Shown here one piece after another: positions 30,251 through 48,790 of a stretch of 64,000 bases of DNA. The notes below the pieces were generated by a model. It was given only the letters and a program-made list of their open reading frames with translations. It was not told the DNA's origin and did no database searches. How positions within the stretch are numbered: position 1 is the first letter of the stretch; each line of letters opens with the position of its first letter. A program made the translations under genes and the position numbers. Origin of the DNA: Streptomyces sp. A2-16 (GTDB lineage Bacteria > Actinomycetota > Actinomycetes > Streptomycetales > Streptomycetaceae); NCBI RefSeq assembly GCF_018128905.1, contig NZ_CP063808.1:5952001-6016000 (forward strand), read 5' to 3'.

Positions 30251-31891
30251 CTAGTGGCCCCGGAACGCCTCCTCCAGCCACCACGCCCCGCGGTCGCGCA
30301 CCACCTTCGCGTCGATCAGCAGGGGCGCCGACCGCGGCCCGGCGACCCAGTCCTCGACGGCCTTGAGATCCGTCCGGGTCCGCACGGTCACCGCCTCGAA
30401 GCCGTAGCCGCGGGCCACGGCCGCGATGTCGGTCGGCGGGAACTCGACCGTGTCGAGCGGGTGTCCGTCGGGACCGAAGTGGTGCACCTCCGCGCCGTAG
30501 GCGTCGTCGTTGTACACGACGACCACCATGGGCAGCCCCAGCCGCCGTACGGTGTCGAGGTCGGCGGCGCCCATCAGCGCGCCGCCGTCGCCGAGCGCGG
30601 CCACCGGCAGCCGGTCCGGGCGGGCCAGGGCGGCGCCGATCGTGGTGGCCAGGCCCAGGCCGATCGACTGGTAGGCCTGGGTGAAGCAGAAGCCGTCCTG
30701 GTCGGGCACCGACAGGAACATGCTCGGGTGGCCCATGAAGTTGCCGGAGTCGACGCCGACGACCCGCTCGGCGGGCAGGATGTCGTCGAGCGCGATGCTC
30801 AGCGTGACGGGGTCGATCCGGTCGCGAGTGCTCGTGTCCTCGTAGGGCACGTCACGCCAGCGCCCCCGGGTGGCGAGGGCTTCGGCGATCTCGGGGGTGC
30901 GCAGGCCCTCCCGCCTCCCGCCGAAGGCCTCCAGCGCCTGCCGCGCGGTGAGTTCGACATCGCCGGTGACGCCGAGGTGCAGCTCCCGGTGTGCGCCGAG
31001 CGCCGACGGGTCGTCGTCGACCTGCACCACGCTCGTGTCGGCGCCGACCAGCGTTCCGTGCCGCATGGTCCACATGTTCAGGGCGCAGCCCCAGCCGACG
31101 ATCACGTCGGCGCCGCCGATGAGTTCGGCCGCCACCGGGGTGGCGAAGCCTCCGGACACGTCGAGGGACCAGGGGTTGTCGTGGAAGAGCCCACGGGCCA
31201 CCGCCGAGGTCGCCGGCAGCGCGCCGCAGCGCTCGGCGAGTGCTTCGAGGGCGTCCCGGGCGGCGGGTGAGCGGGCTCCGCGACCGGCCACGAAGACGGG
31301 CCGCCGAGCCTGCTCCAACACCCTTACCAGGGCTGCCACTTCGGATCCGGTCGGCACGACCGCCGGTCGCCGCGGGGGTGGCGACGCCTGCGCGAGGGCA
31401 CCGTCGGGGACGTCCGACTCCTGGACGTCCAAGGGGAGGTTGAGGACGACCGTGCACCGCTCGTGCAGGGCGCGCCGCACCGCCTCACAGGACTGTCCTA
31501 CGGCGTCCTCGGCCGAGGTGATCCGCATCGGCACCGCGCCCACGGCTCGGGCGAGGGCCTCCTGGTCGACGTAGAAGTTGGAGGTCGGCCGGGTCACCTC
31601 GGCGGCGAGCACGAGGAGCGGTGTCCGGCTCTTGGCGGCCTCGGTGATTCCCGTCATCGCGTTGGTGAGGCCGGGCCCCTGGTGGACGCTGACGGCGGCC
31701 ACCGTGCCGCGCACGCGCGCGTAGGCGTCGGCCATCGTCGCGGCGCCGCCCTCGTGGCGGGCGGCGACGAACCGGGCCCCGGCGGCGACCAGGGCGTTGG
31801 TCAGGTGGAAGTTGCCGGATCCGACGACCCCGAAGACCTGCTCGATCCCGGCCGCGTGCAGGGCCCGCCCGACGGCTTCCGCGACCTTCAC
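30251..31891 (-). CDS. Thiamine diphosphate-dependent enzyme, acetolactate-synthase-like
   Basis: A 546-residue three-domain ThDP enzyme. The N-terminal PYR domain has the activating glutamate in ARHEGGAATMADAYARV. The middle domain has GRGARSPAARDALEALAE. The C-terminal PP domain carries the Mg/ThDP motif ALGDGGALMGAADLDTV...NDDAYG. It resembles acetolactate synthase, benzoylformate decarboxylase and related 2-keto acid enzymes; the substrate is not determined. GTG 31891 overlaps the cyclase-family stop (GTGA). The partner suggests degradation of a cyclic or aromatic amide or lactone through a 2-keto acid. Confidence 0.88.
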   Translation of the reverse strand: MKVAEAVGRALHAAGIEQVFGVVGSGNFHLTNALVAAGARFVAARHEGGAATMADAYARVRGTVAAVSVHQGPGLTNAMTGITEAAKSRTPLLVLAAEVTRPTSNFYVDQEALARAVGAVPMRITSAEDAVGQSCEAVRRALHERCTVVLNLPLDVQESDVPDGALAQASPPPRRPAVVPTGSEVAALVRVLEQARRPVFVAGRGARSPAARDALEALAERCGALPATSAVARGLFHDNPWSLDVSGGFATPVAAELIGGADVIVGWGCALNMWTMRHGTLVGADTSVVQVDDDPSALGAHRELHLGVTGDVELTARQALEAFGGRREGLRTPEIAEALATRGRWRDVPYEDTSTRDRIDPVTLSIALDDILPAERVVGVDSGNFMGHPSMFLSVPDQDGFCFTQAYQSIGLGLATTIGAALARPDRLPVAALGDGGALMGAADLDTVRRLGLPMVVVVYNDDAYGAEVHHFGPDGHPLDTVEFPPTDIAAVARGYGFEAVTVRTRTDLKAVEDWVAGPRSAPLLIDAKVVRDRGAWWLEEAFRGH

Positions 31892-32676
31892 GACCGCTCC
31901 ACCAGCGCCAGCACGCGCGCGGGCGAGCCGGAGCCCGCGACGATGGGCAACGGTCCCGCGATCACGACCGCGCCGGTCGCGGGCAGTTCGGCCAGGTTCC
32001 GCAACTGGGTGAGGCCGTACTTGTCGCTGCCCATCAGACAGGAGTGGCAGGGGAAGGCCGGCTCGAAGGAGTGTCCGCGTCCGGCGTCCGTGCCGACCGT
32101 CTCGACGCCGAGGCCGATCACGGGTGACTCCTCGGCCACCCAGCGGGCGCACTCCGGGGAGAGGCCCGGGGTGTGCGGGCCGTTCTCGTCGGCGTTCAGG
32201 AAGGCCTCCTGGGAGTGCGAGCGGGCGTCCCAGCCGGTGCGCAGGAGCAGCCAACCGCCCTCCGGAAGTGGTCCGTTGTGCTCCTCCCAGGCCTTGACGT
32301 GCGCCACCTCCACCAGGAAGTCGGGGTCCTTGGCCGTCTCGGCGGTGAAGTCCAGCACGGCGGCGGGGGCGATCAGACGGTGCGCCGGCACGGAGGCCAC
32401 GTCGGCGAGGTCCTTCCCGGTCACCCAGTGGTTCGGGGCGTCGAAGTGGGTGCCGGTGTGCTCTCCGCTGCGGAAGTTGTTCCAGTACCAGGCCGGTCCG
32501 CGGTCGTCGTACCGGCTGATCTCCTCCAGCTCGAAGACCGCCGTCTGACCGAACTGCGGCGGCAGTTGGATCACCGGGGTCGCCGACGAGAGCGGCGAGG
32601 TGAGGTCGACGACCTCGATCGAACCTTCGCGCAGTGCCGACACCAGTGCGGTGAGGACGGACGGCTGCTCGTGCAT
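31888..32676 (-). CDS. Cyclase-family (KynB-like) metal hydrolase
   Basis: A 262-residue cyclase-family protein. The signature HTGTHFDAPNH at 73-83 supplies metal ligands H73, H77 and D79, as in bacterial kynurenine formamidase and isatin hydrolase. GWLLLRTGWDAR and SPVIGLGVETVGTDAG are other family blocks. It would hydrolyse an amide, lactam or similar bond. It is the first gene of a two-gene operon with the ThDP enzyme. No tryptophan-pathway genes are next to it, so kynurenine formamidase is only one possibility. Confidence 0.85.
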   Translation of the reverse strand: MHEQPSVLTALVSALREGSIEVVDLTSPLSSATPVIQLPPQFGQTAVFELEEISRYDDRGPAWYWNNFRSGEHTGTHFDAPNHWVTGKDLADVASVPAHRLIAPAAVLDFTAETAKDPDFLVEVAHVKAWEEHNGPLPEGGWLLLRTGWDARSHSQEAFLNADENGPHTPGLSPECARWVAEESPVIGLGVETVGTDAGRGHSFEPAFPCHSCLMGSDKYGLTQLRNLAELPATGAVVIAGPLPIVAGSGSPARVLALVERS

Positions 32677-35106: not shown

Positions 35107-35137
35107 AAAAACGTTTCACGTTCCGCGAGGGTAGACT
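35107..35137 (+). promoter_or_regulatory. LacI-type operator and promoter of the LacI gene
   Basis: AAAAACGTTTCACG (35107-35120) matches the sites at 40151-40164 and 40254-40267. TAGACT (35132-35137) is a good -10 just downstream. Autoregulation by the LacI protein encoded at 35174 is expected. Confidence 0.65.
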
Positions 35138-35173
35138 TGCGTCGCCTGGTCGTACGGCCGCAACAGCGAGGGG

Positions 35174-36199
35174 GTGGAGGCCATTTCGGTTCGCCCCGCC
35201 CGTATCCAGGACGTCGCGGCCGCCGCCGGGGTCTCGGTCTCCACGGTGTCGAACGTCCTGAACCGGCCCGAGCGGGTCAACGCCCGCACCGCCGAGCGGG
35301 TCCGCGACGCGGTCGCCGCGCTCGACTACGTCCCGCACCCGGGAGCCGCCGGTCTGCGCACCGGCCACTCCTCGTCGATCGGTCTCGTGCTCCCGGACGT
35401 GGCCAACTCGTTCTACTCGCGCATCGCGCGCGGCGCCGCCGACGCCGCGTACGAACACGGCTACTCCCTCGTCCTGTGCGACAGCGGTGACGCGCCCGAG
35501 CGGGAGCAGGGCTACTTCACCATGCTGGTCGAACAGCGGGCCGTCGGCGCGGTGGTGGTCCCGCTCAGCGCCGACCCCACCCGGCTGTCGCGGCTGCGCG
35601 AGCGCGGTATCCCGCTCGTGCTGGCGGACCGCGCGATGCCCGCCCAGGAGGGCTGTTCGGTCTCCGTCGACGACATCGCCGGTGGCCGCATCGCCGTGCA
35701 GCACCTCCTGGACAGCGGAGCTCGCGACATCCTCGTCGTCAACGGCGAGCGCACCATCCGCCAGTGCGCCGACCGCTACCAGGGTGCCCGCCAGGCCGTG
35801 CGCACCCGGCGCGAGGCCCGCCTCGGCCAGGTCGTCGCCGACGGGATGACGGTGGCCCGGGGCAGCGAGATCGGCCGCACCCTCGACGAAATGCCGGACG
35901 GAGTGTTCTGCACCAACGACTTCCTCGCGGCGGGGCTGTGCCGGGCGCTGGGCGAGCGCGGCGTGAAGATCCCGGAGGACGTGCAGGTCGTCGGCTACGG
36001 CGACCTGGACATCGCGAGCTTCGTCGGCACGACCCTGACGACGGTCCGCCAGCCGGTGGAGGAGCTCGGCAGGGCGGCCGTCGAGATGCTCCTCGACGAG
36101 GTGGAGGCCCGCCCGGAACACGCTCACGAGGCAAGAGTGTTCGCGCCGGGGCTGGTTCTGCGGGACTCCACGCGGGCTTCCTCAGACGCGCCTTTCTAG
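35174..36199 (+). CDS. LacI-family transcriptional regulator of the AACGTTT regulon
   Basis: A 341-residue LacI regulator. The N-terminal helix-turn-helix and hinge (about 7-60) read RIQDVAAAAGVSVSTVSNVLNRPERV. The periplasmic-binding-protein-like sensor follows, with SSSIGLVLPDVANSFYSRIARGAADAA and FCTNDFLAAGLCRALGERGV. GTG 35174 is the only start ahead of the helix-turn-helix; its ribosome site is GAGGGG and rather close. It is convergent with the GH106-like gene (18-nt overlap). Matching operators upstream of itself, the GH106-like gene and the MFS gene indicate a local regulon. Confidence 0.9.
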   Translation: MEAISVRPARIQDVAAAAGVSVSTVSNVLNRPERVNARTAERVRDAVAALDYVPHPGAAGLRTGHSSSIGLVLPDVANSFYSRIARGAADAAYEHGYSLVLCDSGDAPEREQGYFTMLVEQRAVGAVVVPLSADPTRLSRLRERGIPLVLADRAMPAQEGCSVSVDDIAGGRIAVQHLLDSGARDILVVNGERTIRQCADRYQGARQAVRTRREARLGQVVADGMTVARGSEIGRTLDEMPDGVFCTNDFLAAGLCRALGERGVKIPEDVQVVGYGDLDIASFVGTTLTTVRQPVEELGRAAVEMLLDEVEARPEHAHEARVFAPGLVLRDSTRASSDAPF

Positions 36200-39100
36200 C
36201 CGCACCGGCCCCAGCAGCCCGGACGGAAGCTGGGAGGGGAACGCCCACGCGGTCGGTGTGGCCTCGGCGAGATACGGGGCCAGTGTGTTGTGGACGGTCA
36301 CCTCGAGCCGGACGGTACGCCCGGCGCTCCCGCGGAGTTCGAAGCGGTACGGCGCACAGAACGCCTCCCCGACGGGCTCCCCGTCGACGCACACCGCCAC
36401 GCTGCCGCGCACCCGCCCCAGGTCCAGTACCGGGTCCGGTCCGGCCGGCACCTCCAGCGTCCGCGCATAGGTCACGCCTCCGCTCCAGCCTCCCAGTCCC
36501 AGCTCGCCCCACTCCCCCAGCGGCAAGGGTGCCGCGACCGTGCGCACCCGCACCGGTCCACGCCAGGCGGAACCGCCGCGCAGACAGGCAGTGGGGGCGG
36601 TGACGACTTCGCACTCCGTTGCGTCGGCGCAGGGTTGATCCAGCGTCAGTTCTGCTCCTTCCAGCGGCATTTCAGCGCCGTCGCCGATCCGCACCCGGGC
36701 GGGAAGCTCCAACGGAAGATCCAGCGATACGGTCCCCGCCGGCACGGTGAACCGGAAGCGCTGCTCGGCCTCCCGGACGTCATCGGTGGACCGCAGCGGC
36801 AGTGCGGCGGAACCGAGCACCGGGGCTCCGGCCAGCCACTCGGCCCCGGGCAGGGGATGCGGCCGTACCGCCGCAGCGCAGTGCTGCAACTCCCCCCAGC
36901 GGCCCTCGTGTTCGACGGTGAGCCCGCTCCACTGCCCGGTCCGTGCCTCCCAGCCCGGGCCACTGACCAGGGCGGTGGTGCCCGACACCAGGTCGACGAA
37001 CACCGCGTCCCGGGCGTCGACGCTGTCGGCCACCACGTCCAGGACGTGATCACCGGCGCTCAGCGTCAGTTCGTGCCGGAAGAACATCGGTACCGCGCCC
37101 CAGTCGGACTCGTAGTACTCCACCTTCTCCTGCCGCGCCACGACGGCTCCGTCGAGCAGGACGGTCACGCCCACCGCGGCGCCCACGACGAGGACCGCCG
37201 CCGCACCCCGGTCCGGGGTGCCGATCCGGCCGCGGAAGGTCACGCCGCCGTCCGGTCGTACACCGTCGGGCAGGCGCATGAACAGCGGCCGCGGCGCGAA
37301 CCCGCCCGGGCGGGACAGGCAGAACCAGCTGCCCAGCGGGGTGTCGGCGGCGCCCGAGATGGTCTGCGGCCGGTCCTGGGCGTCGGACAGCTCGTACTCC
37401 AGCACGTTGCGGGCCCGTTCGACCTCCACCCGGGCGGACGCCAGATATCCCCCGCCCGTCTCCAGCCGACTGCCGTTCCACCACAGGCGTTTGACCGCGG
37501 CCGCGCCGACGTGCAGGTCGGCGGGCCCGCGGTGGCCGGTCTCCACGACGGTCCTGACCCGGGCCACGGTCCCGCGCACGGGCACCGGGACCCGCACGAA
37601 CTCCTCCGGAACCAGGCCCTTGTTGCCGAGCAGCCCGTCGGGGTCCGGGATGCCCCGACTCGACGAGTACAGCGAGAGACCCCAGTCATCGGGGGCCAAC
37701 TCCTGCCGCCCGGAGAGGACTTGCTCGACCGCGGCACGGTCCAGGGGAGCCGGGGCCTGCGCGGAGGGGACGGGTGGCAGTACGCGGACGCGGTTGCCGT
37801 AGGTCGCCCGCGCCTGCCCCCAGGAGCCTTCGCTCTCGGTCCACCCCATGGTCCAGATCTGCGGTTCGGCGACGGACGCTCCGGCGGGCAGGGCCAGGTC
37901 GCCCCAGGTGTTGTCCATGGTGGGAGCGAGGCGGCCCTCCCAGCCGCTCGACAGATCGGTCACCTCCGTCGCTCCCGTCGGCTCCAGGGGCGGCGGGGGC
38001 ACGGCGTCCGCCGCAGGGCCTTCGCGCCATACGACGAGGGCGGCGGGGGCGCCTTCCAGGGGCACCTCGATGGTGGAGACGCCGTCAGCGACCGTGACGC
38101 GGCCCGGGCGGCGGCTGCCGGTCGCCGGGTTCCAGATCTCGGCCTCGGCGACCGGGCCCCGCACGGTGACGGTCGAAGTGCGGGCGTAGCGGGCGGGGTC
38201 GATCTCGTGACGGCCCCGCGGCGGATGCGTCCGGGCGTCCGGGAACGCCCCGGTGACCAGCGCGACCGCCTCGTCGCCCTTCCTCCTGACGAGCAGCGGT
38301 ACCTCCCCCGTGGCGTAGCCGGAGGCGTCGGCGACCGCTGCCGCACCGGCTTCGGCGTCGGCCACCCGTTCCAGGCGCGGGTGGTCGAGCAGCGCGGCCA
38401 CGACGGAGTCGTCCCCGGACAGGCCCGCGGCGTGTTCCGGCGGTCGGCCCACGACCACGACCCGTCCACCGGCGTCGAGGAGTTCGGCCAGTCGGCGGGC
38501 CGTCTCGTGCTCCAGGACGCTCGCCGAGGGCAGCAGGACCGCCGTGTACGCGAGGTCCCGGATGCGCAGGGTGCCGTCGCCGGCCTTGGCGCCCTGGACC
38601 GAGGCGTCGTCGATGACGTCGAAGGACACGCGACGGCGGTCGAGGGCGCCGACGGCGGGTTCGAGCCAGTTGTTGGTTCCGCACAGCTCCAGGTAGTGGC
38701 GCTGGGTCTCGTCCACGTCGGCGTGCGCCTCGCCGAGGCGGCCGTCGCCGAAGTGCTGGACGGGGGCGTCGAGGGGGATCAGGGACTGCATCGTCGCGGT
38801 GGGGTGCAGGACCGCCACGTCGGCGCTGTAGGTGCCCCAGGACAGGATCGAGCAGATCCGGGCGACGGCCCGGGAGAACGCCGGGTACTGCCGCCAGTAG
38901 GGCTGGCGCCAGTCGGTGGACGGGGGCGCCCACTCGAACCAGCCGCCCGCGGTGCCGAAATAGCTGGCGTGCGGGTTGTAGAGGTTGGCGCCGCTGCGCA
39001 GGAACGGCAGCAGCCAGTCGTAGGTCTCCTCCAGGGTGCCGCCCCAGCCGGAGGAGTGGAACGACTCGATCCAGACACGCTCGTGGCCGTGGAGGTGGGC

Positions 39101-40108
39101 CATGGAGGAGTGCACCTTGGCGTCGCCGTGGTGGTCGCTGCCTGCGGCGCTGTACCAGCGGTGGGTGCGGAAGTAGTCCGTGTAGAGCTGCGTCGACTGG
39201 GCCGGGAACCCGGAGCGGGCCGGGTGGCTCTGGTCGCAGCCCAGGAGCAGGCCGCGCTCCTCGTGCCAGGCGGCGAGCGGGCGGAAGAGGGCCTCTTCGG
39301 TGAGTTCCGCTCGGACGGCGTAGTAGTCGGCGCGGATCTTGCGGTCCCGCGAGGTGTCTCCCGTGAAGAGGGCCGGGAGGTGGTCGAGGAGATCGTAGCC
39401 GCGCCGGGTCCGGAACTCCTCGGGGAAGCGGCCGGTCCAGGAGTTGGTGGCGGGCAGCTCGTCCTGGAAGCCGCCGGCGATGACGTTGCCCAGGTACTCG
39501 GGCACGCGACGGTCGTACTCGTGGTGGATGGCGTCGAACAGGAGACCGACGGACTCGGGGTTCAGGTAGTCGAAGGCCGTGGGGACGGCGGTGACCAGGC
39601 GTACCTCGGCGCCGTCGGGGGCCTCGATCGCCGGGCCGGCGACCGGGAGGCGGACGCCCGTTCGGTCGTACGCGCCCAGCAGTGTTTCCGTGCCCTTGAG
39701 CGCGACGGTGCCGCCGGAGACGACAGCCCGGCGCGAGCGCAGGGCGCGGCCCGCCGATCCGGGGTGCCGGCGGGTGATGCCGCCCTGGACGTTGGCGCCG
39801 GAGAAGCCGATCTGGTCGTAGAACCACAGGCGCGTGCCCAGGTCCCCGGCGAGCTCGCAGGCGTCCTCGAAGCGGGCCCACCACTCCTCGCCGAACCACA
39901 CCGGGTCGTCGGTACGGGCGCCGAAGGTCGGGCCCGCCGGGGCCAGGTTGATCACCACGAGGTTGTGGACGCCACCGTCCGCGAACCGGCGCAGTTGCCA
40001 GGCCAGACGGTCCCGGGTGACTTTCGCGCCGGACCACCACCACAGCGGGGTGGGGCCGAAGTCGCGGGGCGGGTTGTCGAACAGCTGTCGCAGGGCTGGA
40101 GAGATCAC
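36182..40108 (-). CDS. Large glycoside hydrolase, GH106 alpha-L-rhamnosidase-like
   Basis: A 1308-residue protein. The N-terminal catalytic region starts with PTPLWWWSGAKVTRDRLAWQ and FADGGVHNLVVINLAP, followed by TRLWFYDQIGFSGAN, the pattern of GH106 alpha-L-rhamnosidases. A long middle region with HERVWIESFHSSGWGGTLEE is consistent with the barrel. The C-terminal half has beta-sandwich/galactose-binding-like modules and ends VRLEVTVHNTLAPYLAEATPTAWAFPSQ, a typical GH106 closing block. No signal peptide is present, so it may act on imported oligosaccharides. GTG 40108 follows AAGGA by 7 nt. An AACGTTT operator lies about 45 bp upstream. Rhamnosidase activity is a family-level inference. Confidence 0.8.
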   Translation of the reverse strand: MISPALRQLFDNPPRDFGPTPLWWWSGAKVTRDRLAWQLRRFADGGVHNLVVINLAPAGPTFGARTDDPVWFGEEWWARFEDACELAGDLGTRLWFYDQIGFSGANVQGGITRRHPGSAGRALRSRRAVVSGGTVALKGTETLLGAYDRTGVRLPVAGPAIEAPDGAEVRLVTAVPTAFDYLNPESVGLLFDAIHHEYDRRVPEYLGNVIAGGFQDELPATNSWTGRFPEEFRTRRGYDLLDHLPALFTGDTSRDRKIRADYYAVRAELTEEALFRPLAAWHEERGLLLGCDQSHPARSGFPAQSTQLYTDYFRTHRWYSAAGSDHHGDAKVHSSMAHLHGHERVWIESFHSSGWGGTLEETYDWLLPFLRSGANLYNPHASYFGTAGGWFEWAPPSTDWRQPYWRQYPAFSRAVARICSILSWGTYSADVAVLHPTATMQSLIPLDAPVQHFGDGRLGEAHADVDETQRHYLELCGTNNWLEPAVGALDRRRVSFDVIDDASVQGAKAGDGTLRIRDLAYTAVLLPSASVLEHETARRLAELLDAGGRVVVVGRPPEHAAGLSGDDSVVAALLDHPRLERVADAEAGAAAVADASGYATGEVPLLVRRKGDEAVALVTGAFPDARTHPPRGRHEIDPARYARTSTVTVRGPVAEAEIWNPATGSRRPGRVTVADGVSTIEVPLEGAPAALVVWREGPAADAVPPPPLEPTGATEVTDLSSGWEGRLAPTMDNTWGDLALPAGASVAEPQIWTMGWTESEGSWGQARATYGNRVRVLPPVPSAQAPAPLDRAAVEQVLSGRQELAPDDWGLSLYSSSRGIPDPDGLLGNKGLVPEEFVRVPVPVRGTVARVRTVVETGHRGPADLHVGAAAVKRLWWNGSRLETGGGYLASARVEVERARNVLEYELSDAQDRPQTISGAADTPLGSWFCLSRPGGFAPRPLFMRLPDGVRPDGGVTFRGRIGTPDRGAAAVLVVGAAVGVTVLLDGAVVARQEKVEYYESDWGAVPMFFRHELTLSAGDHVLDVVADSVDARDAVFVDLVSGTTALVSGPGWEARTGQWSGLTVEHEGRWGELQHCAAAVRPHPLPGAEWLAGAPVLGSAALPLRSTDDVREAEQRFRFTVPAGTVSLDLPLELPARVRIGDGAEMPLEGAELTLDQPCADATECEVVTAPTACLRGGSAWRGPVRVRTVAAPLPLGEWGELGLGGWSGGVTYARTLEVPAGPDPVLDLGRVRGSVAVCVDGEPVGEAFCAPYRFELRGSAGRTVRLEVTVHNTLAPYLAEATPTAWAFPSQLPSGLLGPVRLERRV

Positions 40109-40150
40109 GGATGGGTCCTTCCGAGTACGGCCCGGACACTCTCACGGATC

Positions 40151-40164
40151 AAAAACGTTTTACG
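40151..40164 (-). promoter_or_regulatory. LacI-type operator upstream of the GH106-like gene
   Basis: AAAAACGTTTTACG differs by one base from the site before the LacI gene (35107-35120). It lies 43 bp upstream of the GH106-like start, in the divergent region shared with the MFS gene. Confidence 0.65.
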
Positions 40165-40248
40165 TCAGCCTCACCGTAGGACAGTCCCAGGGCACCCACC
40201 AGAGCTGCGGGGCCGTCAGGTCGGTTCCACGGATGGCCGCATGACGTC

Positions 40249-40277
40249 TTGTTGGAACGTTTTTACGCTCCTATAGT
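40249..40277 (+). promoter_or_regulatory. MFS/isomerase promoter with embedded LacI-type operator
   Basis: TTGTTG (40249-40254), a 17-bp spacer and TATAGT (40272-40277) form a convincing promoter. GGAACGTTTTTACG (40254-40267) fills the spacer and carries the same AACGTTT core as the other two sites, so LacI binding would block RNA polymerase directly. Confidence 0.7.
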
Positions 40278-40348
40278 CGCTGGACATCGGCCGAGAACAG
40301 CGACGTCCCCCTCCGCTCGGACCCACTCTCCCCAGACGGAGCCGCATC

Positions 40349-41644
40349 ATGGCCCGAACCTCGCCTGCCCCGAACCAGCCGGAACCGCCCATCGAGAAGC
40401 GCCTGTGGAAGGTCGCGACCCTCTCCGGCATGGCGTCCTACCTCGATGCCGCGCTCATCGTGAGCATCGGCGTCAACCTGGCCATCTACCGCGACGCCTA
40501 CGACATGGGCGTCTGGATGGCCGGTGCGATCAGCGCGATCGTCACCATCTGCATCGCCGTCGGCTCCCTGGTCGGCGGACGGCTCGCCGACGTGTTCGGG
40601 CGACGCCGCCTCTACAACCTGGACATCCTCTGCTACGCCCTCGGGGCGGTCGTCATCACCCTGGCGCCCGACGACATCACCCTTCTGGTGGGTGTCCTGC
40701 TCGCCGGTCTCGCGGCCGGCGCCGACCTGCCGACCTCCCTGGCCGTGGTCTCGGACGCCTCCCCCGACCACGCGCGGGGACGGCTCATCGCGTTCACGCA
40801 GGTCATGTGGATGCTGGGCATCATCGTCGTGGTCTTCGTCGGCTTCGCGCTGTCGGACACCGGCATGATCGGCGCTCGTCTCATCACCGGCCATCTGGCG
40901 GTCGCCGCGCTGGTCACCTGGCATCTGCGGTCCCGGCTGGAACTGGCCACCGGACCGGATCCGGCACAGGACGAGGTCCCGGCGCGCAAGCCGGCCGAGC
41001 AGGGGGTCGCGCTCAAGAACGTCTGGACCCGTGCCGCCCTGGTGCCCATGCTCGCCACCTTCGCCTTCTACGTCACCTGGGGCCTGGGCGCCAACACCAT
41101 GGGCCAGTTCACGACGTATCTGCTGGTCACGGTCAGCGGTGCCTCGCAGAGCGTGGCCACCGGCATCAACCTGGCCTGTCTCCCGATCGGTCTGCTGCTG
41201 ACGCTCGCCTTCGTCCGGATCGCCGACGGCCCGCGCCGCGACCGGATGTTCTACGTCGCCACGCTCGTGCAGATCGCGGCTTTCGCGATCGGCACGCTGA
41301 CCCTGGGTGCCATCGTCGGCTTCCTCGTCTTCTACGTCCTCTACCAGCTGTCGTATCCCTTCGCGGGCGAGGCGAACTACAAGGTGTGGTCGCAGCTGAC
41401 CCTGCCCGCGGACACCCGGGGCACCACGCAGGGGATCACCTACGCCGTCTCCCGCGGGGTCTTCGCGGGCGTCGCGTTCGTGACGCCCGCGCTCCTCGAC
41501 CGGAGCCCCAGCCTGCTGCTCTGGGTGATCACCGGATGCATGGCGCTGTCGGCCCTCGCGGGTCTGTACATCGTGCGCGTCCTCATTCCGCGCGCGTCCC
41601 CGGTCGCCGCCGCACCGGCGGACGTCAAGGTCGCGCGGGCCTGA
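40349..41644 (+). CDS. MFS sugar-type transporter
   Basis: A 431-residue major facilitator with about twelve helices. GGRLADVFGRRRLYNLD is the loop 2-3 signature of the sugar porter/metabolite-H+ symporter groups. RGRLIAFTQVMWMLG follows helix 4. A cytoplasmic central loop covers about 200-225, and the C terminus is cytoplasmic. It probably imports the glycoside or monosaccharide used by the neighbouring enzymes. ATG 40349 follows CGGAG. Under the AACGTTT operator, 25 nt before the isomerase-family gene. Confidence 0.88.
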   Translation: MARTSPAPNQPEPPIEKRLWKVATLSGMASYLDAALIVSIGVNLAIYRDAYDMGVWMAGAISAIVTICIAVGSLVGGRLADVFGRRRLYNLDILCYALGAVVITLAPDDITLLVGVLLAGLAAGADLPTSLAVVSDASPDHARGRLIAFTQVMWMLGIIVVVFVGFALSDTGMIGARLITGHLAVAALVTWHLRSRLELATGPDPAQDEVPARKPAEQGVALKNVWTRAALVPMLATFAFYVTWGLGANTMGQFTTYLLVTVSGASQSVATGINLACLPIGLLLTLAFVRIADGPRRDRMFYVATLVQIAAFAIGTLTLGAIVGFLVFYVLYQLSYPFAGEANYKVWSQLTLPADTRGTTQGITYAVSRGVFAGVAFVTPALLDRSPSLLLWVITGCMALSALAGLYIVRVLIPRASPVAAAPADVKVARA

Positions 41645-41669
41645 ACCGAACCCCGAAGGAGCGCCGACC

Positions 41670-43142
41670 ATGGCGACGACCGAATCCACCACGACCCGTG
41701 CCGGTGAACGGGAAGCCGCCCTGGGCGAGTTGCTCCCGCCCGTGCCCCGCCGCCGGCCGCGGATCGGACTGGTCTCCGGCGGGCTCGGCACCTACTGGCC
41801 GCAGTTCCCGGGACTGCTGCCCCAGTTGAAGGAGTCGGCCGCCTATGTCGCCGAGCGGCTTGGCCGGTTGGACGCGGAGGTGACGGACGCCGGGTTCGTC
41901 TCCGACGCCCAGGAGGGCGCGGCCGCCGCCGAGCGGCTGCGCCGGGCCGACTGCGATCTGATCGTGCTGTTCCTGACGACCTATCTGACCTCGTCGATGG
42001 TGCTGCCGATCGCGCAGCGCACCCACACCCCGGTGCTGGTCGTCGACCTCCAGCCGTCCGAGCGCATGGACCACGCCTCCTTCGACACCGGCGACTGGCT
42101 GGCGTACTGCTCGCAGTGCTCCGTGCCGGAGGTCGGCAACGTCTTCCGCCGGGCCGGCATCCCCTTCCGGTCGGTGTCGGGCTGGCTGCGACAGGAGTCG
42201 GCGTGGCGGCGCGTGGAGCGGTGGGTGCGGGCCGCACACGTCCGGGCCGCGCTCCGGCATGCCCGGCACGGACTGATGGGGCACGTGTACCCCGGCATGC
42301 TCGACGTGCAGACCGATCCGACGCTGCTGTCGGCGACGTTCGGCTCGCATGTCGAGGTGCTGGAGTTCGACGATCTGCGGCACCGGGTGGAGAAGGTGAC
42401 CGGTGCGGAGACCCGGGAGCGGGTGGAGCTCGCCCGGGAGATCTTCACCGTCGACGAGAGTGTGGTGGACGAGGACTTCGCGTGGGGGGCGACCGTGTCG
42501 GTGGCCCTCGACCGGCTGGTGGAGGACTTCGGGCTCGACACCCTCGCCTACTACCACCGGGGCCTCGACGGGGAGCAGCACGAGCGGCTCGGCGCCGGCA
42601 TGATCCTGGGCGCCTCGCTGCTCACGGCCCGCGGGGTGCCCTCGGCCGGCGAGTACGAACTGCGCACCAGTCTCGCCCAGTTGGCCTCGCAGAGTGTCGG
42701 TGCCGGGGGCTCCTTCACGGAGATCCAGGCGCTGAACTTCAAGGACGGGGTGGTGGAGATGGGCCACGACGGGCCCGCCCACCTCGCGCTCAGCGCCCGG
42801 GATCCGCTGCTGCGGGGGCTGGGCGTGTACCACGGCAAGCGTGGCTGGGGCGTCAGCGTGGAGTTCGATGTACGGCAGGGGCCCGTCACCCTGCTCGGCC
42901 TGGGTCAGGACGCCGACGGCAGCCTGTCGTTCATCACATCGGAGGGCACGGTCGTCCCGGGGCCGCTGCTGGAGATCGGCAACACGACCAGCCGGGTCGA
43001 CTTCGGCCGGGATCCCGGCGAGTGGGTCGACGCGTGGAGCGCCACCGGGGTCGGGCATCACTGGTCGCTGGCGGTGGGGCATCACGGCGCCGATTTCGGG
43101 GCGGCGGCGAGTCTGCTGGGGATCGACCACCGGGAGGTCTAG
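41670..43142 (+). CDS. L-fucose/L-arabinose isomerase-family protein
   Basis: A 490-residue protein of the FucI/AraA-like fold. IGLVSGGLGTYWPQFPGLLPQL begins the N-terminal Rossmann-like domain. DLIVLFLTTYLTSSMVLPIAQ and LMGHVYPGMLDVQTDPTLL are middle-domain blocks. The C-terminal half has GAGMILGASLLTARGVPSAGEYELRT with the likely metal glutamate. Ketol isomerisation of an L-sugar is expected, but several family members have other substrates. GAAGGAG precedes ATG 41670. Co-transcribed with the MFS gene. No kinase or aldolase follows, so the downstream steps are elsewhere. Confidence 0.82.
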   Translation: MATTESTTTRAGEREAALGELLPPVPRRRPRIGLVSGGLGTYWPQFPGLLPQLKESAAYVAERLGRLDAEVTDAGFVSDAQEGAAAAERLRRADCDLIVLFLTTYLTSSMVLPIAQRTHTPVLVVDLQPSERMDHASFDTGDWLAYCSQCSVPEVGNVFRRAGIPFRSVSGWLRQESAWRRVERWVRAAHVRAALRHARHGLMGHVYPGMLDVQTDPTLLSATFGSHVEVLEFDDLRHRVEKVTGAETRERVELAREIFTVDESVVDEDFAWGATVSVALDRLVEDFGLDTLAYYHRGLDGEQHERLGAGMILGASLLTARGVPSAGEYELRTSLAQLASQSVGAGGSFTEIQALNFKDGVVEMGHDGPAHLALSARDPLLRGLGVYHGKRGWGVSVEFDVRQGPVTLLGLGQDADGSLSFITSEGTVVPGPLLEIGNTTSRVDFGRDPGEWVDAWSATGVGHHWSLAVGHHGADFGAAASLLGIDHREV

Positions 43143-43172: not shown

Positions 43173-43928
43173 TCAGGGGGCCTGTGCCGCCCGCACCCGC
43201 GCCAGGACGTCCCGGATCATCTCCGCGCTGATCATGAAGTGTTCCCTCGCGATCTCCTCGGCGTGCTCCGGCTCACCCGCCGCGACGGCCTCGTAGAGCG
43301 CGGTGTGCCCGTGACCGGCCCTTTCATGGTGGGACCGCTCGCCCCTGCCCCAGGGCTCGACCGGGAAGCCCAGGCTGATGCGGGTCAGCAGGTCCCGGCT
43401 GAGCTGGGCGATCTGAGGATTGTGGGTGGCCTCGCAGATCGCCCGGTGGAACGCGCTGTCGGCGGCCTGCTCCTCGCGGGGCGTGCTCGCGGAAAGGTGC
43501 GCGGACAGAGCCTCGCGCATCGGCTCCAGGTCCTCGGGCCTGCGGCGCCGGGCCGCCGTCGCGGCCACCATGCCCTCCACCAGTCCGCGCAGGTCGAAGA
43601 GCTGCTCGAACTCCTCCCAGCGGGGCAGCAGCGTACGGCGGACCGCGGCGCCGGTGGACTCGGTCCAGCTGTCGCGGACGAACGCTCCGCCGTTGCGGCC
43701 CCGGCGGCTCTCCACGACCCCCAGGGCCTGGAGGCGGGCCACGGCCTCGCGCACGGTGGGGCGGCTGACGCGCAGCAGTCCGGTCAGGTCGCGTTCGGCG
43801 GGCAGCCGTTCGCCGGGCAGGAAGTCGCCGACGGCGATGGCGGTGAGCAGCCGGTCGGTCACCTCGTCGACCGCCGAGGCGACCTTGACCGGGCGCAGCG
43901 AGGCCGTCGGGCCGTCGCCGAGGAGCAC
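43173..43928 (-). CDS. FadR-subfamily GntR transcriptional regulator
   Basis: A 251-residue regulator. The N-terminal winged helix (about 20-88) reads LPAERDLTGLLRVSRPTVREAVARLQALGVVESRRGRNGG. The C-terminal FCD helical bundle (about 100-240) has metal/ligand positions in FDLRGLVEGM, FHRAICEATHNP and a final HFMISAEMI. FCD-GntR proteins sense small acids, amino acids or peptides. GTG 43928 is the first in-frame start; a slightly longer protein cannot be excluded. It is divergent from the iminopeptidase/Dpp operon, its probable target. Confidence 0.88.
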   Translation of the reverse strand: MLLGDGPTASLRPVKVASAVDEVTDRLLTAIAVGDFLPGERLPAERDLTGLLRVSRPTVREAVARLQALGVVESRRGRNGGAFVRDSWTESTGAAVRRTLLPRWEEFEQLFDLRGLVEGMVAATAARRRRPEDLEPMREALSAHLSASTPREEQAADSAFHRAICEATHNPQIAQLSRDLLTRISLGFPVEPWGRGERSHHERAGHGHTALYEAVAAGEPEHAEEIAREHFMISAEMIRDVLARVRAAQAP

Positions 43929-44057
43929 ACGGTCGAGGACGCGCGAGAACTCGTCACCGGGTTCGGGTGCGGATGTCAGTTGTCCTCCTGCGAGTCGCCG
44001 TTTCTGTAAACGAACACGGGCTGTGTGAACCCGTCGTTACGTCTTTCCCTGCCCCAG

Positions 44058-44097
44058 CTAAAAGGTCTTGTGGACTGACCTTTTAGCGCCCCAGTAT
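44058..44097 (+). promoter_or_regulatory. Operator and promoter of the iminopeptidase-Dpp operon
   Basis: CTAAAAGGTC (44058-44067) and GACCTTTTAG (44077-44086) form a perfect 10-bp inverted repeat around a 9-bp spacer. TTGTGG in the spacer (44068-44073) and CAGTAT (44092-44097), 18 bp apart, can serve as -35/-10. A repressor bound here would cover the -35. The divergent GntR regulator is the likely ligand-responsive binder. Confidence 0.65.
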
Positions 44098-44170
44098 CTC
44101 ATCCATCCGTCACACCCAACTATTTTCAGACAGCGGTCGGCTGGTTTGCGACCGGTCTGGGAGGCTCCCC

Positions 44171-45067
44171 GTGGCGATCCCCGAACCGAACCACACCGGA
44201 ACCGTCGACTTCGACGGCCATTCCACCTGGTACCGGATCACGGGCGAACCGGGCAGGACACCCCTGGTGGTCCTGCACGGCGGGCCCGGCGCCGGTCACC
44301 ACTACACGCTCAGCATCGCGGGCATCTCCCGGCAGGGCCGTCCCGTGATCCACTACGACCAGCTCGGCACCGGGTCCTCCACCCATCTGCCCGGCAAGGG
44401 CGCCGACTTCTGGACCGTCCAGCTCTTCCTCGACGAACTGGACAACCTGCTCAAGGAGTTGGGCATCGCCGACGGTTACCACATCCTCGGCCAGTCCTGG
44501 GGCGGCATGCTCGCCGCCGAGCACGCGGTACGGCGCCCCGCCGGGCTGCGCGGACTGGTCATCGCCAACTCCCCCGCCTCCATGGGGCTGTGGCTGGAGG
44601 CGGCCGCCGAGCTGCGCGCCGGGCTCCCGCAGGAGGTCCAGCACACCCTGCACGCCCACGAGGCGGCCGGGACCACGGACCACCCCGACTACCGGGCGGC
44701 CGAACAGGTCTTCAACGAACGACATGTGTGCCGCCTGACACCCAACCCGCCCGAGGTGCAGGCCACCTGGGACAACATCGCGGCCGATCCGACCGTGTAC
44801 CACACGATGAACGGCCCGAACGAGTTCCATGTCGTCGGCACCCTCAAGGACTGGTCCGTCATCGACCGGCTGCACCTGATCGAGGTGCCGACCCTGCTGG
44901 TGTCCGGGCGCTTCGACGAGGCGACTCCCGAGACCGTCCGCCCCTTCGCCGACCACATCCCCGATGTGCGCTGGCACATGTTCGAGCACTCGAGCCACAT
45001 GCCGCACGTCGAGGAGGAGGACCTCTACCTCCGGATCGTCGGCGAGTTCCTCGACTCCACCGACTGA
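44171..45067 (+). CDS. pip: Proline iminopeptidase-family alpha/beta hydrolase
   Basis: A 298-residue cytoplasmic peptidase of family S33. The oxyanion motif HGGPGAGHH (about 36), nucleophile elbow GQSWGG (Ser about 112), acid in SGRFDEATP and histidine in HSSHMPHVEE form the expected catalytic triad. It removes N-terminal proline or similar residues from short peptides. GTG 44171 follows GGGAGG. It is the first gene of an operon with a complete oligopeptide importer, implying uptake and trimming of a specific peptide. Confidence 0.9.
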   Translation: MAIPEPNHTGTVDFDGHSTWYRITGEPGRTPLVVLHGGPGAGHHYTLSIAGISRQGRPVIHYDQLGTGSSTHLPGKGADFWTVQLFLDELDNLLKELGIADGYHILGQSWGGMLAAEHAVRRPAGLRGLVIANSPASMGLWLEAAAELRAGLPQEVQHTLHAHEAAGTTDHPDYRAAEQVFNERHVCRLTPNPPEVQATWDNIAADPTVYHTMNGPNEFHVVGTLKDWSVIDRLHLIEVPTLLVSGRFDEATPETVRPFADHIPDVRWHMFEHSSHMPHVEEEDLYLRIVGEFLDSTD

Positions 45068-45084
45068 TACGGGAGTTGTCCGCC

Positions 45085-46806
45085 ATGTCCCGCACCACGA
45101 GACGGGGTGCGCTCGCCGCCGCCACCGTCGCCCTCACCCTCACCGTCGCCGCCTGTTCGTCCTCCTCCGACTCGGGTTCCTCCTCCGCCCCGAGCTCGTC
45201 CGGCTCCGGTTCCTCCGCCTTCCAGGCCCAGCACCGGGGAGGCACGCTCAAGCTCGTCGCCCACGCGGCCGCGGGCAGCTTCGACCCGCAGGTCAACTAC
45301 ACCCTCCAGTACTGGCAGTTGTTCCAGTCGATGTACGACGGGCTGCTCGCCTTCAAGAAGGTGGACGGCCAGGAGTCCTTCACCGTCGTCCCGGACCTGG
45401 CGACCGCCATGCCGAAGGTGACCAACGGCGGCAAGACGTACACCTTCACGCTCCGCAAGGGCATCACCTTCTCCAACGGCAAGCCGCTGACCACGGACGA
45501 CGTGGTGGCGTCCTTCCAGCGCATCTTCAAGGTCTCCAGCCCCACCGCGGGCACCTTCTACAACGGCATCGTCGGCGCCGACGCCTGTCTGAAGACGCCG
45601 GCCACGTGCACCCTCGCCAAGGGTGTGACCGGTGACCCGAAGACCGACACGGTCACCGTCAACCTGACGGCCCCGGACCCCGAGTTCGAGTACAAGCTGG
45701 CCGTCCCGCACGCCGTCGTCGTACCGAAGGACTCACCGACGAAGGACGCCGGGACCAAGCCGCTGCCGTCGACCGGCCCCTACACGGCGGCCTCGTACGA
45801 CCCCAACCGGGCACTGAAGCTGGTGCGCAACCCGCACTTCAAGGAGTGGTCGCGGGAGGCGGAGCCGCAGGGCTACCCGGATGTGATCGACTACACCTTC
45901 GGGCAGACGGTCGAGTCCGAGGTCACCGCCGTGGAGAACGGGCAGGCGGACTGGATGTTCGACGCCCCGCCCGCCGACCGGCTGGGCGAGATCGGCACCA
46001 AGTACGCCTCCCAGGCGCATGTGAACCCGCTGACGGCGTTCTGGTACGCGACGCTCAACGTCAACATGGCTCCTTTCAACAACAAGCTGGCGCGGCAGGC
46101 GATCAACTGGGCCGTCGACCGGTCCGCCGTGGTACGGCTGTACGGCGGCACCAACCTCGCCTCTCCCGCCTGCACGATCCTGCCGCCCGGCTTCCCCGGC
46201 CACGTCGACTCCTGCGACTACACCAAGGGCGGCGGTACGACCTGGAAGGCGGCGGACCTCGCCAAGGCCAAGGCGCTGGTCAAGCAGTCCGGTACGGCCG
46301 GCCAGGAGGTCGGGATCGTCACGCAGGACGACGACGTCAACAAGTCGATCGGGCAGTACCTGCAGAGCCTGCTCACCCAGCTCGGCTACAAGGCGACGCT
46401 CAAGCCGCTGTCGGGGAACATCCAGTTCACCTACATCCAGAACACCAAGAACAAGGTGCAGCTGGCCCTGACGTCCTGGTACCAGGACTATCCCGCGGCC
46501 TCCGACTTCCTCAACGTGCTGCTTTCCTGCGCGAGTTACCACCCCGGCAGCGACTCCAGCATCAACATCTCCGGGTTCTGCGACAAGGGGATCGACGCCA
46601 GGATGCAGGCGGCGATCAAGACCTCGGAGACCGACCAGGCGGGCGCGGACAAGCAGTGGGCCGCCATCGACCAGCAGATCATGGGCGAGTCCCCGGTCGT
46701 CCCGCTGATCAACCCGAAGATGATCGACTTCACGTCGACGCGGGTCGGCAACTACCGGTTCAGCAAGCAGTTCTACATGCTGGTCGGGCAGCTGTGGGTG
46801 AAGTGA
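45085..46806 (+). CDS. Oligopeptide-binding lipoprotein of ABC importer (family 5)
   Basis: A 573-residue family 5 solute-binding protein. The signal peptide ends LTVAAC with lipidated C24, followed by a long serine-rich linker. GGTLKLVAHAAAGSFDPQVNYTLQYWQLF, the LTTDDVVASFQRI block and FNNKLARQAINWAVDRSAVV are family signatures (DppA/OppA). ATG 45085 follows GGGAG. The extra frame upstream to 44068 is a shadow of the iminopeptidase gene. It overlaps the next permease as GTGA. Confidence 0.93.
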   Translation: MSRTTRRGALAAATVALTLTVAACSSSSDSGSSSAPSSSGSGSSAFQAQHRGGTLKLVAHAAAGSFDPQVNYTLQYWQLFQSMYDGLLAFKKVDGQESFTVVPDLATAMPKVTNGGKTYTFTLRKGITFSNGKPLTTDDVVASFQRIFKVSSPTAGTFYNGIVGADACLKTPATCTLAKGVTGDPKTDTVTVNLTAPDPEFEYKLAVPHAVVVPKDSPTKDAGTKPLPSTGPYTAASYDPNRALKLVRNPHFKEWSREAEPQGYPDVIDYTFGQTVESEVTAVENGQADWMFDAPPADRLGEIGTKYASQAHVNPLTAFWYATLNVNMAPFNNKLARQAINWAVDRSAVVRLYGGTNLASPACTILPPGFPGHVDSCDYTKGGGTTWKAADLAKAKALVKQSGTAGQEVGIVTQDDDVNKSIGQYLQSLLTQLGYKATLKPLSGNIQFTYIQNTKNKVQLALTSWYQDYPAASDFLNVLLSCASYHPGSDSSINISGFCDKGIDARMQAAIKTSETDQAGADKQWAAIDQQIMGESPVVPLINPKMIDFTSTRVGNYRFSKQFYMLVGQLWVK

Positions 46807-47819
46807 CCCTCGCCCCGTCGGCAGGGGCCCGGCGCTCGCCGGGCCCCTGGCGGACCGCCGCCGGTGACCTGCTGCGCAACAAGTCGGCCCTGACCGCGGC
46901 AGCGGTCCTGCTCCTCGTCGTCCTGGCGAGCCTGTGCGCCCCGCTGTACGCGGACCACATCGCCCACAGCGACCCGTTCCAGTCCCATGTCTCCGGCACC
47001 ACGGTCGTGGACGGAAGGACGGTGCCGGTGCTCACCCCGAGCAGCACCGGCCTCGGCCTCGGGGTCACCCCGATCGGCCCGACCTGGGACCCCGCCCACT
47101 ACTTCCTCGGCGCCGACAACCAGGGACGCGATGTCATGGCGCGGCTGCTGTACGGCGGCCGTACGAGCCTGTTCATCGGGGTCACGGCGGCACTGCTCAC
47201 GTGCGTCCTCGGTACGGCCGTGGGGGTCGTCGCCGGGTACGCGGGCGGAGTCGTGGACGCCGTCATCTCCCGGATCCTGGACGTCGTCTGGGCGTTCCCG
47301 GTGTATCTGCTGGCCATCTGCCTGTCGGTGGTGCTGCTCACCGACGGCCTCCGACTCGGACCCGTCACCGTCGACGCGGGAAGTCTCTGGCTGCCCGTCA
47401 CCATCATCGCGGCGATCTATGTCCCGTACATCGCACGGCCGTTGCGCGGTCAGGTGCTGGTGCTGCGGAACAAGGAGTACATCCAGGCGGCCGTGGGCTC
47501 GGGCGCACCCACCTCGCGGATCCTGCGCCGGGAGGTCCTCCCCAACGTGGTGCCGACGGCGATCGTGTTCGTCCCGCTGATGACCGCGCTCGCGATGCTC
47601 ACCGAGTCCGCGCTGTCCTTCCTGTCCGTCGGCGTCCAGCCCCCCGACGCCAGTTGGGGCACGATCATCGAGGACGGCCTGGGGCTCCTCTACACCCGGC
47701 CCGCCGTGACGATCGCGCCCGGCCTGCTGATCGCGCTGACGACGGCCGCGCTCAACGTCCTCGGCGACGGGGTGCGGGACGCGCTCGACCCGGGCGCCCG
47801 GCTGCGCGGAGGGGTGTGA
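46803..47819 (+). CDS. Dpp/Opp-type ABC permease, DppC-like
   Basis: A 338-residue permease. After the first helix (residues 30-49) there is a long extracytoplasmic insertion (about 50-98), as in DppC/OppC. Five more helices follow, with the FLGADNQGRDVMARLLYGGRTSL entry block and the EAA loop EYIQAAVGSGAPTSRILRREVLPN. GTG 46803 overlaps the binding-protein stop. Here DppC precedes DppB, the reverse of the usual order. Confidence 0.92.
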   Translation: MTLAPSAGARRSPGPWRTAAGDLLRNKSALTAAAVLLLVVLASLCAPLYADHIAHSDPFQSHVSGTTVVDGRTVPVLTPSSTGLGLGVTPIGPTWDPAHYFLGADNQGRDVMARLLYGGRTSLFIGVTAALLTCVLGTAVGVVAGYAGGVVDAVISRILDVVWAFPVYLLAICLSVVLLTDGLRLGPVTVDAGSLWLPVTIIAAIYVPYIARPLRGQVLVLRNKEYIQAAVGSGAPTSRILRREVLPNVVPTAIVFVPLMTALAMLTESALSFLSVGVQPPDASWGTIIEDGLGLLYTRPAVTIAPGLLIALTTAALNVLGDGVRDALDPGARLRGGV

Positions 47820-47821
47820 GC

Positions 47822-48790
47822 ATGCTCGCCTTCGCCCTCAAGCGCTTCGGCTCTGCCCTGCTGGTGATGTTCGCGATCAGTGTGCTGGTGTTCCTGATCT
47901 TCTTCGCCACCCCGGGCGTCGATCCGGCGGCCCGGATCGCCGGCCGCAACGCCGACCCGGCCACGCTCGCCCAGGTGCGGCACTCCTTCGGCCTGGACCG
48001 ACCGATGCCCGTCCGCTATCTGCTGATGATGCGTCACCTGCTGATCGACCAGGACCTGGAGTCGTTCGTCAACCGCGGCTCGCGGGTCATCCCGCAGATC
48101 GTCCAGGCGACCCCGGTGACCCTGTCCCTGGTCGTCGGCGCGGCCCTGATCTGGATGACGGCGGGCATCCTCATGGGCACGGCCGCGGCGACCCTGCGCG
48201 GCAGGGCCGCCGATCCCCTGATCATGCTGGTCGGCGTGGTCGGCGTCTCCCTCCCGGCCTACTGGCTCGGCGAGGTCGTCAACCTCCTCACCCAGAAGCA
48301 GCTGCACGACTCGCTCTTCTCCTGGGTGCCCCCGCCCGGCTACGTCGGCCTCGGCCAGGACCCCGGCCAGTGGGCGCTGCACCTGCTCTTCCCCTGGCTG
48401 ACCCTGGCCCTCCTGTACGCCGGGATCTACGCCCGGCTGCTGCGCGGGGAGGTCGTCACCGCGCTGAACGAGGACTACGTCCGTACGGCCCGCGCCAAGG
48501 GCCTGTCCGAACGGCAGATCCTGCTCCGCCACGCCCTGCGCTGCTCGCTGATCCCGATCGTGTCGCTGTTCGGCCTGGACTTCGGGGCGCTGGTGGGCGG
48601 GTCCGCACTCCTCACCGAGGTGGTCTTCGGCCTGCCCGGCATCGGCAAGCTCACCTTCGACGCCCTCCAGAACCTCGACCTGCCCGTGATCATGGGGACC
48701 GTCCTGTACGCGGCCTTCTTCGTGGTCCTCGCCAACGCCCTGGTGGACATCCTGTACGCGCGACTCGATCCGAGGGCCCGTCATGCCTGA
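47822..48790 (+). CDS. Dpp/Opp-type ABC permease, DppB-like
   Basis: A 322-residue permease with six helices. The N terminus KRFGSALLVMFAISVLVFLIFF and the LRHSFGLDRPMPVRYL-like region (here QVRHSFGLDRPMPVRYL) are DppB signatures. The EAA loop is EDYVRTARAKGLSERQILLRHALR. ATG 47822 is preferred over GTG 47816 because GGAGGGG lies 7 nt upstream. The stop overlaps the first ATPase gene by 8 nt. Confidence 0.92.
   Translation: MLAFALKRFGSALLVMFAISVLVFLIFFATPGVDPAARIAGRNADPATLAQVRHSFGLDRPMPVRYLLMMRHLLIDQDLESFVNRGSRVIPQIVQATPVTLSLVVGAALIWMTAGILMGTAAATLRGRAADPLIMLVGVVGVSLPAYWLGEVVNLLTQKQLHDSLFSWVPPPGYVGLGQDPGQWALHLLFPWLTLALLYAGIYARLLRGEVVTALNEDYVRTARAKGLSERQILLRHALRCSLIPIVSLFGLDFGALVGGSALLTEVVFGLPGIGKLTFDALQNLDLPVIMGTVLYAAFFVVLANALVDILYARLDPRARHA

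Follow-up and report, generated by a model that had tools for sequence, protein, structure and literature searches.

Results

Gene content and promoters of the module

The present study concerns a small gene module within a 64,000-nucleotide stretch of Streptomyces sp. A2-16 (contig NZ_CP063808.1; the whole analysed stretch is hereafter "the window", 5.95-6.02 Mb of the 9.8-Mb genome). The module contains genes for a LacI-family regulator, a GH106-like enzyme, a major facilitator superfamily (MFS) transporter and an isomerase-family protein, the last of which is proposed herein as an L-rhamnose isomerase of a third type. The regulator, the presumed repressor of the module, has 341 residues (35174..36199, forward strand; PF00356 and PF13377 over cut-off). 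The GH106-like alpha-L-rhamnosidase, 1308 residues long (36182..40108, reverse strand), matches a part of the PF17132 profile with 53.1 bits (cut-off 29). The 431-residue MFS protein (40349..41644, forward strand; PF07690 87 bits, PF00083 58 bits) is presumed to import a rhamnoside or L-rhamnose, and an NCBIfam scan of it returned no model at its cut-off. The gene for the 490-residue aldose-ketose isomerase, with a predicted AraA/FucI fold (41670..43142, forward strand), lies 25 bp 3' of the MFS gene. These identities and sizes agree with a preliminary description of the locus.

Throughout the 64,000 nucleotides, AACGTTT was observed at three places only (35109-35116, 40153-40160 and 40256-40262), giving five strand matches against 0.72 expected, and at least five were obtained in none of 100 shuffles. 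The first site, 5' of lacI, and the second, between the divergent GH106-like and MFS genes, are both the palindrome AAACGTTT. The third, AACGTTT, is placed inside the 17-bp spacer between a -35-like TTGTTG (40249..40254) and a -10-like TATAGT (40272..40277), both on the forward strand, which together form a candidate promoter for the MFS and isomerase genes. Thus, the three sites and the promoter boxes around the last of them were found where the preliminary description had placed them. The genome-wide motif scan suggested there, made with the exact 8-mer, revealed AAACGTTT at 8 places, 2 of them at the module, and the reversed pattern (read backwards), used as a control, at 2 places. The other six places have unlike flanks and were rejected as regulon members; the neighbours of five were scanned with Pfam, none was recognisably involved in sugar catabolism, and one place had no match at all.

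Conservation of the regulon in Streptomyces

A single scan of named genomes with the isomerase yielded 263 related stretches, and the best 80 were kept as named loci. The footprint and gene-family counts below cover these loci and the window, with genes and families assigned by a simple custom predictor and BLAST clusters, so that errors in start codons and in broken genes are possible. The footprinting set consisted of the window and 52 named Streptomyces loci, L057-L108 (n=53). Within 300 bp 5' of the MFS gene, at least one AACGTT was present in 52 of the 53 loci and at least two in 50, whereas one or more were obtained in 5.7% of shuffled stretches and two or more in 0.08%. The sole locus without a site there, L065, has an MFS gene call that seems broken, with sites further upstream. 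Within 200 bp 5' of the LacI gene, at least one AACGTT was present in 41/48 loci (4.1% of shuffles). The promoter itself is also conserved: TTGTTGnAACGTT was observed at the MFS promoter in 52/53 loci, and 49 of these 52 carry a -10 box at 17-bp spacing (TATATT in 38, TATAGT in 11). A LacI protein matching that of the module with 77-96% identity, a few of the matches being partial, was present in 47 of the 52 loci. Because all loci derive from one genus and are related, they are not independent counts. Between the named loci and a second set of loci, at least three pairs are duplicate contigs (L037/L057, L038/L064 and L040/L108), and duplicates are therefore present in a 66-row GH106 set and in a 101-row set, whereas the footprint counts draw on the named loci and the window only. 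In alignment A1, the window was aligned with 29 of the 80 named loci; L120 (a stop in the stretch), L125 and L126 were left out.

Gene content is conserved together with the sites. Among the best 80 of the 263 loci, the GH106, MFS and LacI families occurred together in 45, GH106 and MFS in 5 more, and in one further locus all three were accompanied by a RhaS-like binding protein. In Streptomyces, LacI, GH106 and MFS are the only genes that travel with the isomerase, and no dedicated kinase or aldolase was observed in the loci. The LacI-linked unit proposed in the preliminary description is therefore a real local regulon within Streptomyces, as borne out by the conserved sites and gene content, and it very likely serves the use of rhamnosides. 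A variant was observed in Streptomyces sp. NBC_01016 (L136:8443-21422), in which LacI and the isomerase diverge around two AACGTT sites. The stretch also contains GH78, an Opp-type importer preceded by a further AACGTT site and, at its edge, a GH106 fragment.

The isomerase and its fold

The isomerase had no match in a Pfam scan, and the AraA model of NCBIfam gave only 26 bits. The RhaA and RhaI models (TIGR01748 and TIGR02635) were absent among the matches of the window isomerase (E <= 0.001) and of a stand-alone relative described below (E <= 1e-8). An AlphaFold model was obtained with a mean predicted local distance difference test (pLDDT) score of 74 and a predicted TM score of 0.80. Foldseek aligned this model with AraA (4r1o; E 5.8e-22, TM 0.73), and in the VIA comparison AraA reached Z 26.2 (root-mean-square deviation 3.2 over 419 aligned residues) and FucI at best Z 20.0. 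On this model, the protein has the AraA/FucI fold. E328, E351, H366 and H464 align with identical residues of AraA, namely its metal-binding and catalytic residues E306, E333, H350 and H450. However, identity to either E. coli AraA or FucI is only 18%, and in a quick tree, built without four paralogues that were short or doubtful (L021, L022, L023 and L026), the isomerase and its stand-alone relatives fall outside the AraA clade; long branches leave the placement of FucI and of the family f12 members described below unsure. The closest named relatives of the window isomerase are from Streptomyces.

Genomic contexts of the isomerase family

Of the best 80 loci, 76 held one or more gene families for rhamnose use or rhamnosidases, one held MFS and LacI only, and 3 held none of the listed families; RhaI was in the same stretch in 16, RhaEW in 17 and RhaB in 16. 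In actinobacteria other than Streptomyces, the isomerase family is found with RhaI, RhaEW, RhaB, RhaM and a RhaS-type ATP-binding cassette (ABC) importer, with RhaI (TIGR02635) and RhaEW (TIGR02632) over cut-off, RhaM assigned by PF05336, and RhaB (414 bits, cut-off 528) and RhaS (327 bits, cut-off 342) under it. A search of 396 genomes of the phylum matched 14 at E <= 1e-60, own genome included. Two of the 13 others (G348 and G525) lie at contig ends and were left out of the context comparison, and all five distant relatives of 46-81% identity whose context was examined are in rha operons with RhaI, RhaB, RhaEW and RhaM.

A different context was observed in another actinobacterial class, in which G390 and G247, two of the 14 genomes, carry an isomerase relative of about 30% identity with RhaB, and no RhaI, beside it. 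Within this class, 13 of 197 genomes, from 8 genera, have such a stand-alone relative, and in 13/13 it has both RhaB and RhaD as neighbours, the gene order being RhaB-isomerase-RhaD or RhaB-RhaD-isomerase. In G390, the one operon scanned with NCBIfam, an AraC-family regulator is followed by RhaB (TIGR02627, 547 bits, passing the cut-off of 528), the isomerase, RhaD (NF002963, 325 bits, passing 170; TIGR02624, 325 bits, failing 401) and a partial GH78-like sequence. The layout of these operons is similar to rhaBAD, except that a protein of the AraA fold takes the position of RhaA. RhaA was found in none of the 13 genomes, with a positive control detected in 3 known genomes, and RhaI over cut-off in none, with 34-bit partial fragments in two; the genomes are 96-99% complete and 1.4-3.7 Mb in size. 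Since RhaB and RhaD are present without RhaA or RhaI over cut-off, some protein in these genomes should make L-rhamnulose. In G247 (L174:10397-11865), the RhaB beside the isomerase relative and RhaD is in two overlapping pieces, reflecting a frameshift or an error in the draft sequence.

The core rha locus and neighbouring genes

The preliminary description stated that no kinase or aldolase is present. This is correct locally, whereas in the genome RhaB and RhaEW, together with RhaI, form a core rha locus at 3.747-3.752 Mb, 2.24 Mb from the module. The local lack of these genes as the sign of an odd pathway was therefore rejected. The core locus adjoins genes for an ABC importer and a GH78 enzyme, as well as three putatively LutABC-like genes. 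In the 20-kb stretch around it (L149:1-20000, own genome 3738000-3757999), no AACGTT was found and no gene of the LacI family of the module was called.

Downstream of the module (43173-50830) are a GntR/FCD regulator, an alpha/beta hydrolase and an Opp-type ABC operon with SBP_bac_5, which adjoin the module only in close relatives. The Opp-type genes (44171-50830), as well as the thiamine pyrophosphate enzyme and cyclase genes on the other side (30251-32676), were rejected as parts of the module, as their gene families were found in just 7 to 9 sources, some of which are the same genome twice.

Discussion

The conserved operators, the gene content and the contexts of the isomerase together describe a local regulon in Streptomyces that very likely serves rhamnosides. 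Herein, we propose how it might operate. L-rhamnose or a rhamnoside, as the probable inducer, would free the three AACGTTT operators of the LacI protein, which presumably binds them. The MFS protein would import a small rhamnoside, from which the GH106-like enzyme would release L-rhamnose in the cytoplasm. The AraA/FucI-fold isomerase would then turn L-rhamnose into L-rhamnulose, and RhaB and RhaEW from the separate core rha locus would finish the pathway. A LacI-repressed accessory rhamnoside set, whose isomerase makes L-rhamnulose, is the best-supported reading of these sequences, and we regard it as somewhat more likely than not.

The GH106-like enzyme is consistent with such a pathway. No signal peptide was visible at its N-terminus, as judged by eye and not with a predictor, and its substrate should therefore enter the cell. 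It matches the BT_0986 structures 5mwk and 5mqm (phmmer), with E348 aligned to the catalytic base E593, and D216, E217 and E348 are invariant in 66/66 rows of the family, a few of which are duplicates. The model of residues 1-1200 (pLDDT 36) is too poor for a fold call. The Ram106B rhamnosidases, in the accessible part of PMC6828813, provide a close parallel: these GH106 members, which are active, lack a signal peptide and are proposed to be intracellular, have an aligned catalytic base Glu, carry Asp-Glu at the position of Asp458-Ser459 in BT_0986 (occupied here by D216-E217) and have no match for the BT_0986 acid E461. They differ in size, at approximately 116-121 kDa compared with 1308 residues here, and in their partners, as one adjoins ABC transporters whereas the module has an MFS protein. 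In the preliminary description, uptake of an intact rhamnosyl oligosaccharide by an MFS protein followed by intracellular cleavage was considered unusual; for uptake with subsequent cleavage inside the cell, however, precedents are found in the accessible parts of PMC6828813 and PMC3870299.

The regulation likewise has a known counterpart. According to the accessible part of PMC3870299, actinobacterial RhaR regulons include rhamnosidases and importers, and in Actinomycetales a LacI-type RhaR controls rhamnoside uptake and rhamnosidases, the core pathway consisting of RhaI, RhaB and RhaEW. In contrast, the regulator here covers GH106, MFS and the isomerase locally and leaves the core rha locus of its own genome without AACGTT. 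Outside Streptomyces, a LacI-like palindrome was observed near rha genes in three loci (L111, L119 and L130).

The preliminary description placed the isomerase in the FucI/AraA family, and the fold agrees; as to the substrate, the contexts favour L-rhamnose over L-fucose and L-arabinose. RhaA and RhaI are TIM barrels, so an L-rhamnose isomerase on the AraA/FucI fold would constitute a third, separately evolved class. In the 13 stand-alone genomes, where it adjoins RhaB and RhaD, the family seems to provide the only L-rhamnose isomerase, and in Streptomyces and other actinobacteria it seems to add a second isomerase to RhaI. That such a class exists, acting alone in those 13 genomes and as a rhamnoside-induced second isozyme in soil actinomycetes, here under a dedicated LacI, is a proposal to which we give an even chance. 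Two types, RhaA and RhaI, are named in the accessible part of PMC3870299. No third type was found by titles and the beginnings of abstracts in the open-access collection searched, and the accessible part of PMC11489063 yielded nothing on the family of this isomerase.

Several observations weigh against this assignment. First, RhaI was found in all 20 genomes of the streptomycete family that carry the isomerase, and, as noted above, in the same stretch in 16 of the best 80 loci, so that the isomerisation of L-rhamnose there does not need the isomerase; for comparison, among 20 genomes of the same genus without the isomerase, a subset of 74 without a match, RhaI was found in 13. Second, the window isomerase and the stand-alone relatives are only about 30% identical. 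Third, pLDDT falls below 50 over residues 350-400, and this segment holds E351 and H366, so the geometry of the active site is only tentatively modelled. Fourth, three relatives of family f12, 46-51% identical to the stand-alone type, showed no RhaB or RhaD in stretches of 6-12 kb, the only sign being a kinase match of 72-79 bits, and a RhaA-like match under cut-off was present in 3 of 4 f12 genomes. Such contexts suggest that members of the wider family may differ in substrate. For the module as a whole, the catalytic acid E461 of BT_0986 is not kept in the GH106-like protein, where it aligns with P219, and AACGTT operators were not seen in most loci outside Streptomyces.

Next to a more distant f12 pair is a RhaA-like gene, accompanied by genes of the SDR, enolase-like and TIM-barrel types. 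In G464 (L177:267-9129), a LacI-like gene, a TIM-barrel isomerase-like gene, an SDR, an MR_MLE enolase-like gene and two tandem isomerase-family genes are followed by a RhaA-like gene, possibly forming an oxidative deoxy-sugar operon.

A first alternative concerns the substrate. The isomerase might act on another aldose or deoxy-sugar found alongside rhamnose in the glycosides taken up, such as a 6-deoxyhexose of different configuration or with a modification. This would explain why it is kept beside RhaI, and the stand-alone relatives would then differ, or be broader, in specificity. The constant presence of RhaI and the f12 contexts would suit this explanation, as would the best NCBIfam model, that of sulfoquinovose isomerase (SftI/SqvD, NF048012), an enzyme for a 6-substituted deoxyhexose. 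However, that model scored only 42.2 bits with the window isomerase and 68 bits with a stand-alone relative, far under the cut-off of 700, and no sulfoglycolysis genes were recognised among the neighbours scanned, although no search was aimed at them. Moreover, the Streptomyces module brings neither a kinase nor an aldolase, and where RhaB and RhaD occur with no known isomerase over cut-off, as in the 13 genomes, a member of the family is beside them. We therefore consider another substrate possible and distinctly less probable than L-rhamnose.

A further alternative concerns the transporter: the MFS protein could import free L-rhamnose, as predicted for RhaY, or export a product, with the GH106 substrate entering otherwise. 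In favour of this view, the rha operon of L170, which gave no ABC importer match, has the gene for a 32% identical MFS protein between those for RhaB and RhaM. Conversely, the apparently cytoplasmic GH106-like enzyme calls for a substrate that enters the cell, and the MFS protein that accompanies GH106 in Streptomyces stands in for the ABC importers of other loci, some of which hold the GH106 and isomerase pair with a CUT1 or Opp-type importer and sometimes a GH78 rhamnosidase. Such a role for the transporter is thus unlikely, with perhaps one chance in a few. Finally, that the locus has recruited an isomerase for L-arabinose or L-fucose, which the preliminary description allowed for and the shared fold and AraA residues could imply, is very improbable given the low identity to both enzymes, the position outside the AraA clade and recognised neighbours that are rhamnose genes.

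The accessory rhamnoside set with an L-rhamnulose-forming isomerase is thus a variation on known rhamnoside regulons, in which the type of isomerase, if confirmed, is the new point. What was previously a guess at a regulon has become a promoter supported by footprinting, with operators that can be tested. If the assignment is true, it would fill a gap in the catabolism of rhamnose in genomes with RhaB and RhaD and no known isomerase, and it would also assign a function to a family of AraA/FucI-like proteins that so far has none and offer a new scaffold for the isomerisation of rare sugars.

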